A stretch of DNA of 25,584 bases, from positions 1 through 25,584 of the IMG/VR virus record IMGVR_UViG_3300042914_001868. The stretch is one strand, 5' to 3'. This DNA is from a virus. Positions 8,625 to 22,049 of the stretch are shown here, in pieces (the first letter of the stretch is position 1; the number at the start of each line of letters is the position of its first letter). The notes beneath the pieces were generated by a model. The model had not been told where the DNA came from and did no database searches. It was given only the letters and a program-made list of their open reading frames with translations. Made by a program: the position numbers and the translations under genes.

Positions 8625-10112
8625 TCAGGGGAGAGCACCAGTTGGCGCAGCAGGCTGGTCTGGAGAAAGACCAAGTTTTTTGCGAACGTAGTTTCTGAAT
8701 TCAGGGTTGTAAAGATATTCGTATGTTCCGCTCGCACCAACGCTTGCCGGAATGGTGAACATTTGATGGCGACCCGGAATCATTGAAAGAGCGCCAGTGG
8801 CCAAGCTCGCACCCTTGAGGCCAATTTTTCTTGGGTCTCTCTGATCTGCCGGCTTGCTCATTTCGTGCATGATTTCTGCCGTATCCAAACCAGCAGAAAC
8901 TCCAGCCAGTGGTGGAGCAACAACCCTCAACGCTCTTTCTGCCATCCCAGCAACAGGGCGCATCATGGATTTGAATTTTTCCGTGACTTGACTAAGACCA
9001 GACTGCCTTGGGGGCTCAGGAGGCTGACTTGGAGTGGCCAAAGAAATTGGAGGCATTGTAAAAAATGGATCCTGCAAGGCCCTTGGAACCGCCCGCGTCA
9101 TTGGCTCACCCCTGGGGAACAAAACGCCAGACGGCGTAGATGTCATCCCCGGCTGCCTTGAGAAAAACTCAGGACCGCTCTCCGCTACAAGGCCTGCGTT
9201 TTTCAACGCTTCAGCAGTAGCGTATGCCTGCTTTTGACCGGCAGAAAGTTGAGCGGTTTCAGTGTTGAAGCCTGTTGATCTTGCGCGACCAGTTGTCCCA
9301 AGATCACCGATGGTGCCTTGCTGAATTCTGGTCGCTTGATCAGGCGTAGACAGCGCACTCAGCGGGCCGACCGGTGCAGCAGCCGGGGGTCTGGTGGTTG
9401 CTGCCCTTGTCTGAGCCTCACGAGCGGCCTGAGCCTCTCTCTCCAGTCTTTGCTCAGTGAGCCTTGCTCTTTCTTCCAAGCCGGCCCGGCGCACCAAAGC
9501 CGCCTCTCGATTGGCCATGAGGGCATCAATACCGGTGGCTCCAGTACCAAGAGCGGCACCAACACCGCCAAGCAAAAGACGATCTGCCGGATCGGCAGTT
9601 GACTCGGCGCTCGGCATTTCAGGCGGTGGCGCATCAACAAGCTCATCATCGCCCGATGCGACGGGTTGTGCTACTGGACGATTGTTGAATGTGCCAAAAG
9701 ACTCCAGGGTCCGCACATACTCAATTACCCCAGGGTCTGGCTCCTGGCCACTTTTGAGCGCCTCAAAAGCAGAAGGGCCTCCGCTGTAATAGACCGCCGC
9801 CAACTGGGGGTCGTTTTCCGTTGCGATGAGCGCCCTTCGGAGGTACTCAATGCCAGCCTCAATATTCTTCTTGGGGTCTGCAAGAGCCTTCTCGTCAAAG
9901 CCGATGGCTCTGCCCATTGACGGCGCAATTTGCATGATGCCGACGCCGCCCCTTGATCCCTTCTGGGGCTTCAAGTTCAGGCCGCTTCCCTGGTAGGCGA
10001 TAGCAACTGCAAGAGTTGGATCAACGCCCGCGTTGGCCGCAGCAGTAGCAACAAGAACAGCGTTATTGCGCTGCTCTTCAGACAGCTTATCCATCAAATC
10101 CAAGAATTCCAT
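8625..10112 (-). CDS. ejection/internal virion protein with N-terminal SLT-like domain
   Basis: A 495-residue protein. Residues 1-140 follow the soluble lytic transglycosylase (lysozyme) fold: DPTLAVAIAYQGSGLN, RGGVGIMQIAPSMGRAIG, NIEAGIEYLRRAL and AAVYYSGGPSAF. Such domains cut peptidoglycan so that a short-tailed phage can pass DNA through the wall. However, the position that should be the catalytic Glu before Ser-Gly is Gly42 (codon GGA at 9987-9989), so activity is doubtful. The rest is Ala/Arg-rich helix (about 215-240), a long polar region and a Gly/Ala-rich segment at about 380-450. It is the last gene of the late operon; its start shares one base with the previous stop (TAATG) and has GGAG six bases upstream. 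Confidence 0.78.
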   Translation of the reverse strand: MEFLDLMDKLSEEQRNNAVLVATAAANAGVDPTLAVAIAYQGSGLNLKPQKGSRGGVGIMQIAPSMGRAIGFDEKALADPKKNIEAGIEYLRRALIATENDPQLAAVYYSGGPSAFEALKSGQEPDPGVIEYVRTLESFGTFNNRPVAQPVASGDDELVDAPPPEMPSAESTADPADRLLLGGVGAALGTGATGIDALMANREAALVRRAGLEERARLTEQRLEREAQAAREAQTRAATTRPPAAAPVGPLSALSTPDQATRIQQGTIGDLGTTGRARSTGFNTETAQLSAGQKQAYATAEALKNAGLVAESGPEFFSRQPGMTSTPSGVLFPRGEPMTRAVPRALQDPFFTMPPISLATPSQPPEPPRQSGLSQVTEKFKSMMRPVAGMAERALRVVAPPLAGVSAGLDTAEIMHEMSKPADQRDPRKIGLKGASLATGALSMIPGRHQMFTIPASVGASGTYEYLYNPEFRNYVRKKLGLSPDQPAAPTGALP

Positions 10113-16322: not shown

Positions 16323-16583
16323 TCAGGTTGTTTGCACCGCAGGGTTCACCGCTGAAACCAGGGCCTGGGCCCAGTCATACCAATTGTCGAAGTCGTCCGT
16401 CATCGGGATCGCTTCGTTAGAGAACACGTCAATCGCACCTAAGCCGTTGCCCCACTTCTTCCAGTCGGTGGTTGCGTCAGGGATCGAAAGCTGCTGCGCC
16501 GCATACAACTCGACCATGAGGCAGGCCCACGACTCAAAAGTGTGATACCTGGGGTCATAGACCTGAGCCGGATTAAGGGCCAT
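16323..16583 (-). CDS. small late protein, function unknown
   Basis: An 86-residue, aromatic-rich acidic protein (RYHTFESWACLMVELYAAQQ, WKKWGNGLGAIDVF, DDFDNWYDWAQALVSAVNP). It has no signal peptide or membrane segment. Its start overlaps the end of the gp10-like gene by 11 bases with GTGAGG just upstream, and it sits between tail and ejection proteins. A minor virion component or an assembly factor is likely from context alone. Confidence 0.7.
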   Translation of the reverse strand: MALNPAQVYDPRYHTFESWACLMVELYAAQQLSIPDATTDWKKWGNGLGAIDVFSNEAIPMTDDFDNWYDWAQALVSAVNPAVQTT

Positions 16584-18786
16584 ACGGCCTCACGTCGCCC
16601 ACCTCGGCGTTCAGGAGCAGCCTACCCAGTTGATAGTCGCCGCCGGCCACATCAGAGATGAACCGCAGGCGCAACTCTCGGCGCTGCTCACGCATGTCGA
16701 TCTTGCCGGTGTTCGGGCCAAAAATGTACGGGTCAGACTCCTTGTCCTCCCCTTGAGCGAAAGGCCGTCCGGTCACGATCACCGACATCTCGCCTTCTTG
16801 CAAGAAGTCGGGCTCAATCCGCTCGATCCTGAGCCATCGGTTCGGGCCTTCAGCGGCAGGCTGAGACGGGCCACCAGCGGTCAAGCTCAGGTCGCTGGTC
16901 TCGAAGTAGCTGCGGATGGCCGACACGTTTTGGCCCTCGACATCGTCGGTTCCGATCTCGTGCTGGTACAAACGAACCAGCCCGGCAGGGGTCGAAAACG
17001 TCAACGCAGCCGTTCCGCTTGCGGTGGCCGCAGCAGACATCTCAATGGCCTGGGCATAAATCGCCGACACGGGGATTGCGAATCCAGAGCCGGATCCGCC
17101 CAGGTTGGTGTTGCTCGCGCTCAGGATGTCGCCGATCTCATATCCTGCCCCGCGATCCGTAACCGTCACCGTCGTCACCTGACCACCAACGACAGAAATC
17201 GTCGCCCTTGCACCCATTCCAGAACCACCCGTAAGGGGCACGTTGGTGTAGACAGCATTCACATATCCAGACCCAGGGGTGATCGTACCGAGGGTCTTGA
17301 TGTTGCTCGACGTAATGGCGACGACGGTCGTGCCGGTCGGGATGTTCGATCCGGAGATGACTTGATTTATGGCGGCCTGCGTGTTGTAGGTGTCAAGGTA
17401 CAAAAACTCGCTGCCCGAAACCTCAGTGAAGTTGTCCACAAAAACGGCTTCGGCCTCGCTGGCATCCCAGTTGGCCGCGATGGGGAACGCAAACACCTGG
17501 GAGAAGTACCCGGCAGACCGACGGGCACCAAGGGCCTGCCCGGCGTCATACCAGACGTTCTCGCGCACGTTGTAGATGATTGCGTCGGTGCATTCGGTCG
17601 CGTCCCCGCGGGGGTAGAACCACCAGATCTCTCCGTACCTGGGTACCTTGGTCACCCAGACCTTCTGGCGCTGGGAGTAGTTCAGGTTGTCGAAGAAGTA
17701 GTTCTGGTTCATGCTGTTCGGGATTTCCTTGACCACACCGTTGTAGAGAAGGAACCGGTCAACACCGCACCAGTAGTAGATCCCGTCGTACTCGATGGCC
17801 GACTGGGACGACAAGATTGAGGACTGGCTGCTGATGATGTCATAGCGCCAGTATTGGGGAGGGGTTCCCGTGCCGCCGATAAACGACACGCGGATGAGGC
17901 TGTCAAGGCTCCAAAACAGCCCAGAAGGCGCGTTGGAGCCACCCCTGACGGGTAGCCCTTGGACGATCTTTCCGGTGGCCACGTTGGTCGCATTGGCGTC
18001 CGCAGAGACCCAGTCATCCAAGTTGCCGGCAGAGCAATTTTGGATCAGGCCGTTGTTGCCGTACACAAACAGGTACGGGTGCAGGGACACCACGCCGCCG
18101 GAGACGGAGATGTTGTTGTCGAACGTGACGGTCACCGTAGCCGAAGCCGTAGCGTTGTTGGAAATCGTCACGCTCGTCGTCGAGACAGACACCACGGTAG
18201 TGTTGGCAGGGATACCCGCACCGGTCACAGTCTGCCCAGCACCGACAAAAGGATTCACTGCGGCCAGGGTGATGACGTTGTTGCCGCTTACGGTCGTTGC
18301 CGAGTCGGTAAAAACGCCGACCTTGGACATGGTCGAGCCGTTGATGTTTCCAGCCAAAACAGGGGTGTTGGCGGTGCTGTCAATCGCAACAAGATTCTTC
18401 CCAGGATGGGCAACAATTGTTTGCAGGCCAGACCCAGTGACATCGTAAAAGCCGTCGAACTGCCAAAGGTTCAATGGAGACGCGGTAAAGTTGGACAGCG
18501 TGAAATTGGTCACGCCGGCACCGATACCGTTGTCGTCAATGACCAGAACTTGCAAGCCGTCGCTGTACCCGCTGAAGATGGAATTGAACGAGTCTTGAGG
18601 GTTGACCCAGATGCCGCGAGAAGGCCCGCTCAAGCCGTCAGAGATGACCCGGTAGCCGCCGATCTTCCTGGGTCGGCCACGCTGAAAGCGCACCCACTGC
18701 CCATCGTTGTAGAAAATCTTGTCGTAAACGGTACCGTCACGCTGGATTCCAGCCCGCGTGTCGAGCGAGAAGACCTTCTGCGTCAT
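16573..18786 (-). CDS. P22 gp10-like packaged-DNA stabilisation (tail hub) protein with inserted beta domains
   Basis: A 737-residue beta-rich protein. The N-terminus (GQWVRFQRGRPRKIGGYRVI) sets up a gp10-like propeller. The centre has YDGIYYWCGVDRFLLYNGVV, then KVWVTKVPRYGEIWWFYPRG and DAIIYNVRENVWYDAG, similar in order to the P22 gp10 core, and the C-terminus (RELRLRFISD ... GRLLLNAEVGD) matches its closing strands. Two G-T-T-V-V-type beta modules are inserted, near residues 160-235 and 470-610; the second is itself interrupted by a GSGY-type module (about 498-577). Known gp10 proteins plug the tail channel and anchor the needle or fibres. This gene is adjacent to an adaptor and ejection genes, as expected. 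Its ATG directly follows the upstream stop codon. Confidence 0.78.
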   Translation of the reverse strand: MTQKVFSLDTRAGIQRDGTVYDKIFYNDGQWVRFQRGRPRKIGGYRVISDGLSGPSRGIWVNPQDSFNSIFSGYSDGLQVLVIDDNGIGAGVTNFTLSNFTASPLNLWQFDGFYDVTGSGLQTIVAHPGKNLVAIDSTANTPVLAGNINGSTMSKVGVFTDSATTVSGNNVITLAAVNPFVGAGQTVTGAGIPANTTVVSVSTTSVTISNNATASATVTVTFDNNISVSGGVVSLHPYLFVYGNNGLIQNCSAGNLDDWVSADANATNVATGKIVQGLPVRGGSNAPSGLFWSLDSLIRVSFIGGTGTPPQYWRYDIISSQSSILSSQSAIEYDGIYYWCGVDRFLLYNGVVKEIPNSMNQNYFFDNLNYSQRQKVWVTKVPRYGEIWWFYPRGDATECTDAIIYNVRENVWYDAGQALGARRSAGYFSQVFAFPIAANWDASEAEAVFVDNFTEVSGSEFLYLDTYNTQAAINQVISGSNIPTGTTVVAITSSNIKTLGTITPGSGYVNAVYTNVPLTGGSGMGARATISVVGGQVTTVTVTDRGAGYEIGDILSASNTNLGGSGSGFAIPVSAIYAQAIEMSAAATASGTAALTFSTPAGLVRLYQHEIGTDDVEGQNVSAIRSYFETSDLSLTAGGPSQPAAEGPNRWLRIERIEPDFLQEGEMSVIVTGRPFAQGEDKESDPYIFGPNTGKIDMREQRRELRLRFISDVAGGDYQLGRLLLNAEVGDVRPYGP

Positions 18787-20654: not shown

Positions 20655-21046
20655 CACCACACCTTCTTCTTGATAGATTCTGGCTGCGGGACAAATTGCT
20701 TGCCCTGTCGCATGCCTTCTCTTTTGGCTCGCGTTGTTGCCGCGTATTCAGAAGGTGTTAACTTCTCTCGTGCCTTTTTGGGCAGATACCGCTCGCCGGT
20801 TGCTTGGGATCCCTGCGTGGACGGCTTTCCAGACTTCGTTCCCCAGTCCTCTTTCGTCCACTGTGAGAGCGAATTATCCGCCTTCTTGGGGCCTTTGTAA
20901 CCCCCCCCAGAAGATTTGTACTTCTGCGTGGCAAGCTGGGCCTTCCTGGCGCTCCATTGCCCAGGAGAACCGCCCTTCCCGCTGGCTTTGACCTGAGAGA
21001 CGATCCTGTCCCATTTTGCCGGGTCTGTCTTCTTTGCCGTGCTCAT
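20654..21046 (-). CDS. DUF5872-like basic protein
   Basis: A 130-residue, very Lys/Arg-rich protein. KWDRIVSQVKASGKGGSPGQ, WSARKAQLATQKYKSSGGGY, SLSQWTKEDWGTKSGKP, RYLPKKAREKLTPSEYAATT and KQFVPQPESIKKK follow the DUF5872 pattern that I recall from giant-virus and phage proteins of unknown function. Its composition suggests binding to DNA or to an acidic surface of the virion. It has no recognisable ribosome site and its ATG overlaps the endolysin stop (ATGA), so translation is coupled. A G8 run (20901-20908 on the plus strand as C8) lies in the Gly-rich turn, a slippage-prone spot, but the frame is intact. Confidence 0.75.
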   Translation of the reverse strand: MSTAKKTDPAKWDRIVSQVKASGKGGSPGQWSARKAQLATQKYKSSGGGYKGPKKADNSLSQWTKEDWGTKSGKPSTQGSQATGERYLPKKAREKLTPSEYAATTRAKREGMRQGKQFVPQPESIKKKVW

Positions 21047-21549
21047 GATAGGAAAAAGGCCCTTTCTTCCTTGCGGCGCTTGTCCAGCCCCGGCAGCACT
21101 TTACCGCCGCCCTTATTCCAGAGCAAGAAGGCATCCGCCGCGGCCTCCCACTCCCCCCGGTTTGCCTTGATCCGGATGGTCGAACGCTGGAGATTCCCAA
21201 GGCCTACATTGAAGGCAAAAGATACCAGAGCGTCAAACCGGCCTTGATGGCCAACACAATTGGGAATAAGTCGAAGAACACCGCGTTCAAAAGACGCGAC
21301 GTCCGCTGAGAATAGGTCATCGGTTTCTTTCTTTGTCCAGACACGGCTGTCCTCCGGTTTGAGCGGCATTTCTTTGCGAATCATCGGCGCTGGCTTGTCT
21401 TCGGTGCGCATCATCGGCAGGCGAATCTGCTCCTGATACAGCACATGTCCGTAGCCAATTGTCCAGATGTGCGCCGGGCACAGGTACGGGCGGTTCCTGT
21501 ACCCCTCGTACTTGTGCATCAAATCAGCGCCGGCCTTGCTCAGTTTCAC
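21043..21549 (-). CDS. GH24 endolysin (T4/P22-type lysozyme)
   Basis: A 168-residue lysozyme. E15 in HKYEGYR, C24 in PYLCPAH and T30 in WTIGYGH form the catalytic triad with T4 spacing (E11-D20-T26), but Cys replaces Asp. Later motifs are FDALVSFAFNVGLGNLQRST and FLLWNKGGGKVLPGLDKRR. An insertion of about 30 residues after GYGH (EQIRLPMMRTEDKPAP ...) is characteristic of one phage subgroup. The enzyme cleaves the glycan strands of the host wall. No signal-arrest sequence is present, so it needs the holin encoded just upstream. The start is GTG at 21547-21549 with a GTGA overlap; an earlier TTG start would overlap the holin by 34 bases. Confidence 0.92.
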   Translation of the reverse strand: MKLSKAGADLMHKYEGYRNRPYLCPAHIWTIGYGHVLYQEQIRLPMMRTEDKPAPMIRKEMPLKPEDSRVWTKKETDDLFSADVASFERGVLRLIPNCVGHQGRFDALVSFAFNVGLGNLQRSTIRIKANRGEWEAAADAFLLWNKGGGKVLPGLDKRRKEERAFFLS

Positions 21550-22049
21550 TTCTTGCCCCAGGTGCGGGTACCAAACCAAAAACCAATAATCGCGCCCAAC
21601 ATCGACATTTCATCGGGGCTGAAGATGATGTCTGAGTACCGCAGCACATCGTCCATGCTTTTGATCATTCCGGGGTTTGTGTATAGGTAGTAGCACAGGA
21701 ACAGGTTGATCAGCACCAACTCCAGCACGAAGATGTACGTCACGGTCGGGCGCACAGTGCCGACGTAGGAGGCAACCCACTTGTGGGCTCTGTCCAGCAC
21801 CTTTTCGTCGTGTTGCAGAGCGGCCTCGGTCATCTGCGCCTCGGTCTGCATCATGATCTGATCAGTGCGGATTTCCTCAATGCGCTGCTGCGCGGCGTAC
21901 CCCTGGGCCGCCAGAGCCAACTCACGCTCGTTTTGCATCCTTGCCAAAGCCAACTCGTGCTTCTGGTCGGCCTTGTTTTGGAAGTACTCAAGCAATTTGG
22001 GCAGGCCGGAAATAAGCAGGCCGCCGAGGGTAGAAATGAGGGACAGCAT
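21546..22049 (-). CDS. GTA-type holin with three transmembrane segments
   Basis: A 167-residue protein. A hydrophobic N-terminus (about 3-22), a charged coiled coil (25-85), then RPTVTYIFVLELVLINLFLC (100-119, TM) and MLGAIIGFWFGTRTWGK (150-166, TM) match the three-segment holin family named after gene transfer agents. The R-P just before the second segment and the G-x-x-x-G-x-R/W ending are its hallmarks. It would form membrane lesions that release the endolysin encoded next. GGAG lies eight bases before the ATG, which shares one base with the upstream stop. Confidence 0.85.
   Translation of the reverse strand: MLSLISTLGGLLISGLPKLLEYFQNKADQKHELALARMQNERELALAAQGYAAQQRIEEIRTDQIMMQTEAQMTEAALQHDEKVLDRAHKWVASYVGTVRPTVTYIFVLELVLINLFLCYYLYTNPGMIKSMDDVLRYSDIIFSPDEMSMLGAIIGFWFGTRTWGKK

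Follow-up and report, generated by a model that had tools for sequence, protein, structure and literature searches.

Insertion of domains into the propeller of phage nozzles is already known. According to the available part of the SU10 description, the nozzle of this phage carries an insertion into its propeller, and its domains rearrange on attachment. Two-level nesting has been described for the muzzle protein gp44 of phi-crAss001, a nozzle whose propeller has received Ig domains at blades 2-3 and 3, with a further domain made up of insertions that lie in loops of one of these Ig domains, IG2; the distal domain of this muzzle is proposed to contact the cell (PMC10172136, in the part available). 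A survey of 48,551 insertion events, in which phages are not mentioned, names Si3 of the cyanobacterial RNA polymerase as a six-level case (PMC13114784).

Here we analyzed a stretch of 25,584 nt of viral DNA (IMG/VR record IMGVR_UViG_3300042914_001868; referred to as the window), which encodes a nozzle that is a clear new case of such nesting. The protein shares the core of the P22 gp10, T7 gp12 and SU10 gp17 nozzles, i.e., a platform and a seven-bladed propeller. In contrast to SU10, where the described insertion is into the propeller, the window protein carries an insertion into an inserted domain, and the inserted modules differ, as far as the available SU10 text goes. With gp44 it has the two-level nesting in common, but the nested part of gp44 is a unique crass fold built over two loops, and the available part of that description contains no recurrent module, module exchange in one slot, or self-nesting as in the window's family (PMC10172136). 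Si3 resembles the nozzles in its recursive domain insertion (PMC13114784); it is, however, part of a cellular enzyme, whereas relatives of the window protein appear to carry one module type within itself five to seven deep, with a number of layers that varies between close relatives. Uninterrupted domains with a fold like that of the GTTVV module, which is split in the window protein, are found in the decoration protein of Arthrobacter phage Bridgette (8eci), where the likeness weakly extends to the sequence (E 0.0027), and in residues 103-183 of the tail tube of phage Mystique (9n71).

A nozzle protein with modules in its core loops

The open reading frame at 16573..18786 on the minus strand is translated into a protein of 737 aa, which is a nozzle of the P22 gp10/T7 gp12 type. 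Its sequence matches phrog_3287 (7e-25), whose name reads simply "virion structural protein". By phmmer it also matches the VP1 nozzle, for which a structure has been solved (1.5e-8). An AlphaFold model of the whole protein, built with 57 relatives, reached a mean pLDDT of 87 and was aligned by VIA to the nozzles of Pa223 (9nwi, Z 28.2), VP1 (Z 26.0), and SU10 (Z 25.8) as well as to P22 gp10 (8eap, Z 24.6, 428/471 residues, rmsd 3.7). These nozzle matches extend over the whole length of the model, and T7 gp12 is also among its Foldseek matches. The matches to P22 gp10 and Pa223 place the platform and seven-bladed beta-propeller fold in the window protein, so that computation confirms the homology, and the description of the protein as gp10-like in the initial annotation was borne out by the P22 gp10 alignment and the VP1 match. 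By homology to the solved nozzles, the protein would form a hexamer placed between the adaptor and the needle or fibres. No Pfam family was found at the curated cut-off for the protein or its modules. Matches of single modules in nozzles, e.g., to tail fibre or baseplate proteins, name the insert and not the protein, and such annotations should be read with this in mind.

Among the neighbours of the nozzle gene, one encodes a virion structural protein and another a protein with an SLT domain; matches to tape-measure-like proteins are also found there, but are weak. The SLT-domain protein (8625-10112, minus strand, 495 aa) carries its transglycosylase domain near the N-terminus (PF01464, 2.3e-13) and is likely an ejected tail or core protein. 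An endolysin (21043-21579, minus strand; phrog_7, 4e-46) is encoded between tail-fibre-like genes and the nozzle gene.

The layout of the nozzle gene in window coordinates is as follows.

16573..18786, minus strand: nozzle gene (P22 gp10-like), 737 aa; phrog_3287 7e-25, VP1 1.5e-8, P22 gp10 Z 24.6
18337..18786, minus strand: core part 1, residues 1-150, including the unoccupied site A (about residues 87-105)
18106..18336, minus strand: site B with module 1, an uninterrupted GTTVV beta domain, residues ~151-227; 8eci E 0.0027
17467..18105, minus strand: core part 2, residues 228-440
17296..17466, minus strand: site C, left half of module 2 (GTTVV), residues ~441-497; maps to profile 6-57
17056..17295, minus strand: nested GSGY module, residues ~498-577, at the hairpin tip of module 2; PHROGs 6005, 5342, 438
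16978..17055, minus strand: site C, right half of module 2, residues ~578-603; maps to profile 64-80
16573..16977, minus strand: core part 3 and stop codon, residues 604-737

The motifs ISGSNIP (residue 477), GSGYVNAV (505), RGAGYEI (545), and AIEMSAAA (580) lie where the initial annotation had placed them, and bases 17056-17295 correspond to residues 498-577. The uninterrupted GTTVV module that it had noted at residues 175-235 exists, but is located at residues ~151-227.

A GSGY module splits the second GTTVV domain

The proposal that one beta domain is nested inside another was confirmed and does not reflect a chance resemblance: residues 498-577 are a separate GSGY module which splits a GTTVV beta-sandwich into the stretches ~441-497 and 578-603. 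Flanks joined by script matched the profile of the uninterrupted module 1 over 69 columns (hhalign, 2e-16), compared to 46 columns of the left flank only (3e-9) when they were left unjoined. The right half alone mapped to positions 64-80 of the 85-column profile, where the final strands of module 1 lie (1.4e-7), and the left half alone to positions 6-57. Upon shuffling of the right-half columns, the score dropped from 84 to 58-62 in 20/20 trials (E 1e-11 to 6e-11).

In the AlphaFold model of the whole protein, the short hairpin 196-202/205-208 of module 1 has its counterpart in 482-499/570-583 of module 2, with the GSGY strands in between. The region 437-605 folded alone gave a model with a pLDDT of 94.5. 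In line with this, a continuous stretch of 78 residues of 8eci aligns to residues 10-169 of the region model while skipping the insert (VIA, 75 aligned, Z 8.4), and residues 103-183 of the Mystique tail tube likewise align with both flanks across it (Z 6.3). With the insert left out, module 2 is thus a continuous domain homologous to module 1; secondary structure and the alignment to 8eci indicate that its strands probably pair across the insert. At the level of single searches, the joined flanks gave only E values above 0.3 against the PDB by phmmer, and Foldseek of the site-C region alone against the PDB gave no E below 0.001, with 8eci resolved only by a second look with VIA. A scan of bacterial genomes gave no match to the site-C composite.

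Searched alone, residues 498-577 match tail, baseplate, and structural PHROGs that bear the GSGY module (6005, 5342, 438), and a profile of the nested segment matches the site-A insert of relatives (9e-28); phmmer of the nested part against the PDB returned nothing. The module occurs independently in unrelated phage proteins, such as P-HM2 gp7, which has it without GTTVV flanks, and alone at sites A and C in relatives. What looks like similar grafting is also seen in cyanomyophages: in very large structural proteins of the Synechococcus phages S-H9-1 and S-MbCM7 (L380, L381), the GSGY module comes after a YYVRKRIYQ strand that belongs to a different domain. When inspected by tblastn as candidate composites, these two proteins were rejected, as GSGY lies there between unrelated flanks.

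Occupied and empty sites in related nozzles

Six scans of viral contigs yielded 352 distinct complete nozzles. Inserts were located by anchoring on four core segments; alignment to a bare-core profile by hmmalign could not place large inserts. Three core loops, sites A, B, and C, vary among these relatives. Site C is empty in 168 of the 352. Short RITE-type repeats occupy it in 60 relatives, a lone GSGY module in 13, a lone GTTVV module in one (L424, of a divergent lineage), and the composite GTTVV[GSGY], at about the same length, in 110. Both L001 and Caulobacter phage GB2A have the core without site-C modules, GB2A lacking all modules including module 1, and Manatee Spring phage MW202545 has no modules at C, but its site A is filled by GSGY and its site B by GTTVV. 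The bare-core relatives, the site states, and the model together reveal an inserted domain wholly inside an inserted domain inside the host core (A1-B1-C-B2-A2). Neither of the two outcomes that the initial annotation had named as fatal to the nesting was observed: the joined flanks match one domain, and relatives carry each part by itself at site C and not the entire stretch as a single fold.

The Caulobacter-phage-like nozzles L085-L164 carry RITEDGD/RVTE repeats of 30-60 aa at site C, showing that this slot also takes a quite different kind of insert. At site A of L234, about 165 residues consist of GSGY and a second part.

At site B, the GTTVV domain is whole in about 190 relatives and in others carries inserts of its own, namely GSGY (6), a T4-type module (26), one T3 module (39), or T3 stacks. 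These mostly lie in the module-1 loop at profile positions 48-58; some T3 inserts are found before the last GTTVV strand (profile 68-69), and here nesting within GTTVV is less sure. Occupied and empty slots recur across the core tree, which requires at least 17 state changes at site A, 27 at B, and 8 at C (FastTree, fewest changes), and modules have been exchanged often.

History of the composite at site C

The initial annotation had a GSGY module jump into a module inserted earlier. Simple insertion demands that GTTVV came first and GSGY later, but this order is not supported as stated: on the core tree, L415, L406, L440, and L448, which branch deep within the window's clade, carry GSGY alone at site C, and among the 352 relatives the window's own lineage has no intermediate with uninterrupted GTTVV at this site. 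In the module tree, the GSGY copies of these deep branches do not group with nested GSGY (80 columns, weak support). The content of the site could instead have been replaced. The GSGY tree groups the nested copies of site B with site-A copies, apart from those of site C, which form nearly one group (80 columns, weak support); this suggests that the same GTTVV[GSGY] nesting happened at least twice.

A competing explanation, which we consider possible but somewhat doubtful, is that GTTVV[GSGY] took shape outside site C, for example at site B of a different nozzle or in a different structural protein, and reached site C whole, i.e., by one insertion and not by two rounds. The composite is present in full in close relatives of the window and also at site B in L272, L344, L345, L352, L357, and L378; against a single arrival, no other protein in the phage collection was found to carry it, and the GSGY tree, weakly supported over its 80 columns, points to separate nesting events at the two sites.

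Two further readings would deny the nesting itself. That the stretch 441-603 is one continuous fold merely resembling two modules would fit its near constancy in the window's clade (110/352, about the same length), yet it is very improbable given that the parts occur alone at site C (13 GSGY, 1 GTTVV), that the joined flanks match the uninterrupted module, and that both flanks align to one continuous 8eci domain. Hardly any weight can be given to two partial tandem GTTVV copies beside GSGY, derived by duplication and decay of module 1, since the halves, though both homologous to module 1, cover complementary, non-overlapping parts of its profile (6-57, 64-80), joining them in swapped order loses the right half, and the model is of high confidence (pLDDT 94.5).

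Probable recursive nesting of the T3 module in relatives

In a relative whose best segment shares 86% identity with the window protein (L078, IMGVR_UViG_3300032308_000777), module 1 contains a stretch of 258 residues that reads T3-left, T3-left, whole T3, T3-right, T3-right, with T3 split at profile position 31-36/37. Many further cases came from a scan that used this stretch as the query. Such arrays were read with separate left and right profiles in distinct complete nozzles; for the calling of halves the cut-off was raised, and lone low-score half matches at sites without T3 were dropped as noise. T3 arrays are located at residues 151-486 of L078 and also in L386-L402, L404-L419, L421, L422, L424, and L444, and the open frames of such nozzles extend to about 1,430 codons.

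The T3 halves form balanced brackets in 70/70 arrays, up to seven deep, with the types LR (39), L3R3 (14), L5R5 (13), L6R5LRR (2), and L7R6LRR (2); the 70 arrays represent few independent lineages and should not be read as 70 events. When L3R3 and L5R5 arrays are compared, the first left half is closest to the first left, the last right to the last right, and the innermost pair to the innermost pair, as nesting predicts. Single T3 modules at site B (L042, L428-L459) have a left half most like the innermost left and a right half most like the outermost right of the five-deep arrays (L404-L419). Within the window's clade, depths of 1, 3, and 5 were seen and none of 2 or 4, and on the core tree L042, with one T3, lies close to L409, with five.

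Nozzles of the window's phage family probably build arms by recursive self-nesting, in which a module of ~78 residues was repeatedly placed in its own loop, with brackets to seven deep inside the propeller. The layer number varies between close relatives, so that the length of such an arm would be evolvable. Where the T3 stack sits in GTTVV, one more level would be added. Our literature searches found no precedent for recursive self-nesting in phages, and no description of module exchange in one nested slot or of balanced self-nesting. If true, the self-nesting equals or exceeds the deepest domain nesting named in the insertion survey (PMC13114784).

Proposed architecture and role

We propose, with a probability of about 0.88, that the window encodes a beta-propeller nozzle, a hexamer by homology, which forms the end of the tail in a short-tailed phage, that its core loops A, B, and C take small beta modules, that the hairpin tip of the site-C GTTVV module holds GSGY, and that the resulting outward arms most likely serve host contact. 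A beta-sandwich with adjacent chain ends could be placed in a loop while the host fold stays intact, and the far hairpin of the inserted sandwich could then act as the next graft point. As the two connections of an inserted beta-sandwich to the chain lie at one end, nesting would produce a stiff rod of stacked beads, the base of which holds both chain ends. In relatives, this slot is empty or occupied by GSGY, by a T4-type module, or by T3, either single or as a recursive stack. Six rods per nozzle would allow longer or varied presentation at the tail end. Display of the modules on the surface is plausible, and a role in adsorption may be assumed by analogy with the SU10 and crAss001 nozzles: most likely, six variable outward arms contact the host surface or fibres and are changed by recombination.

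The intermediates of insertion, from the empty slot through one module and a module within a module to stacks, are found within one gene family, so that a question of protein evolution, namely how split domains arise and stay balanced, becomes testable. The loops of these nozzles represent natural, pre-tested insertion slots, and the phage may vary the arms at its tail tip while the conduit core remains untouched.
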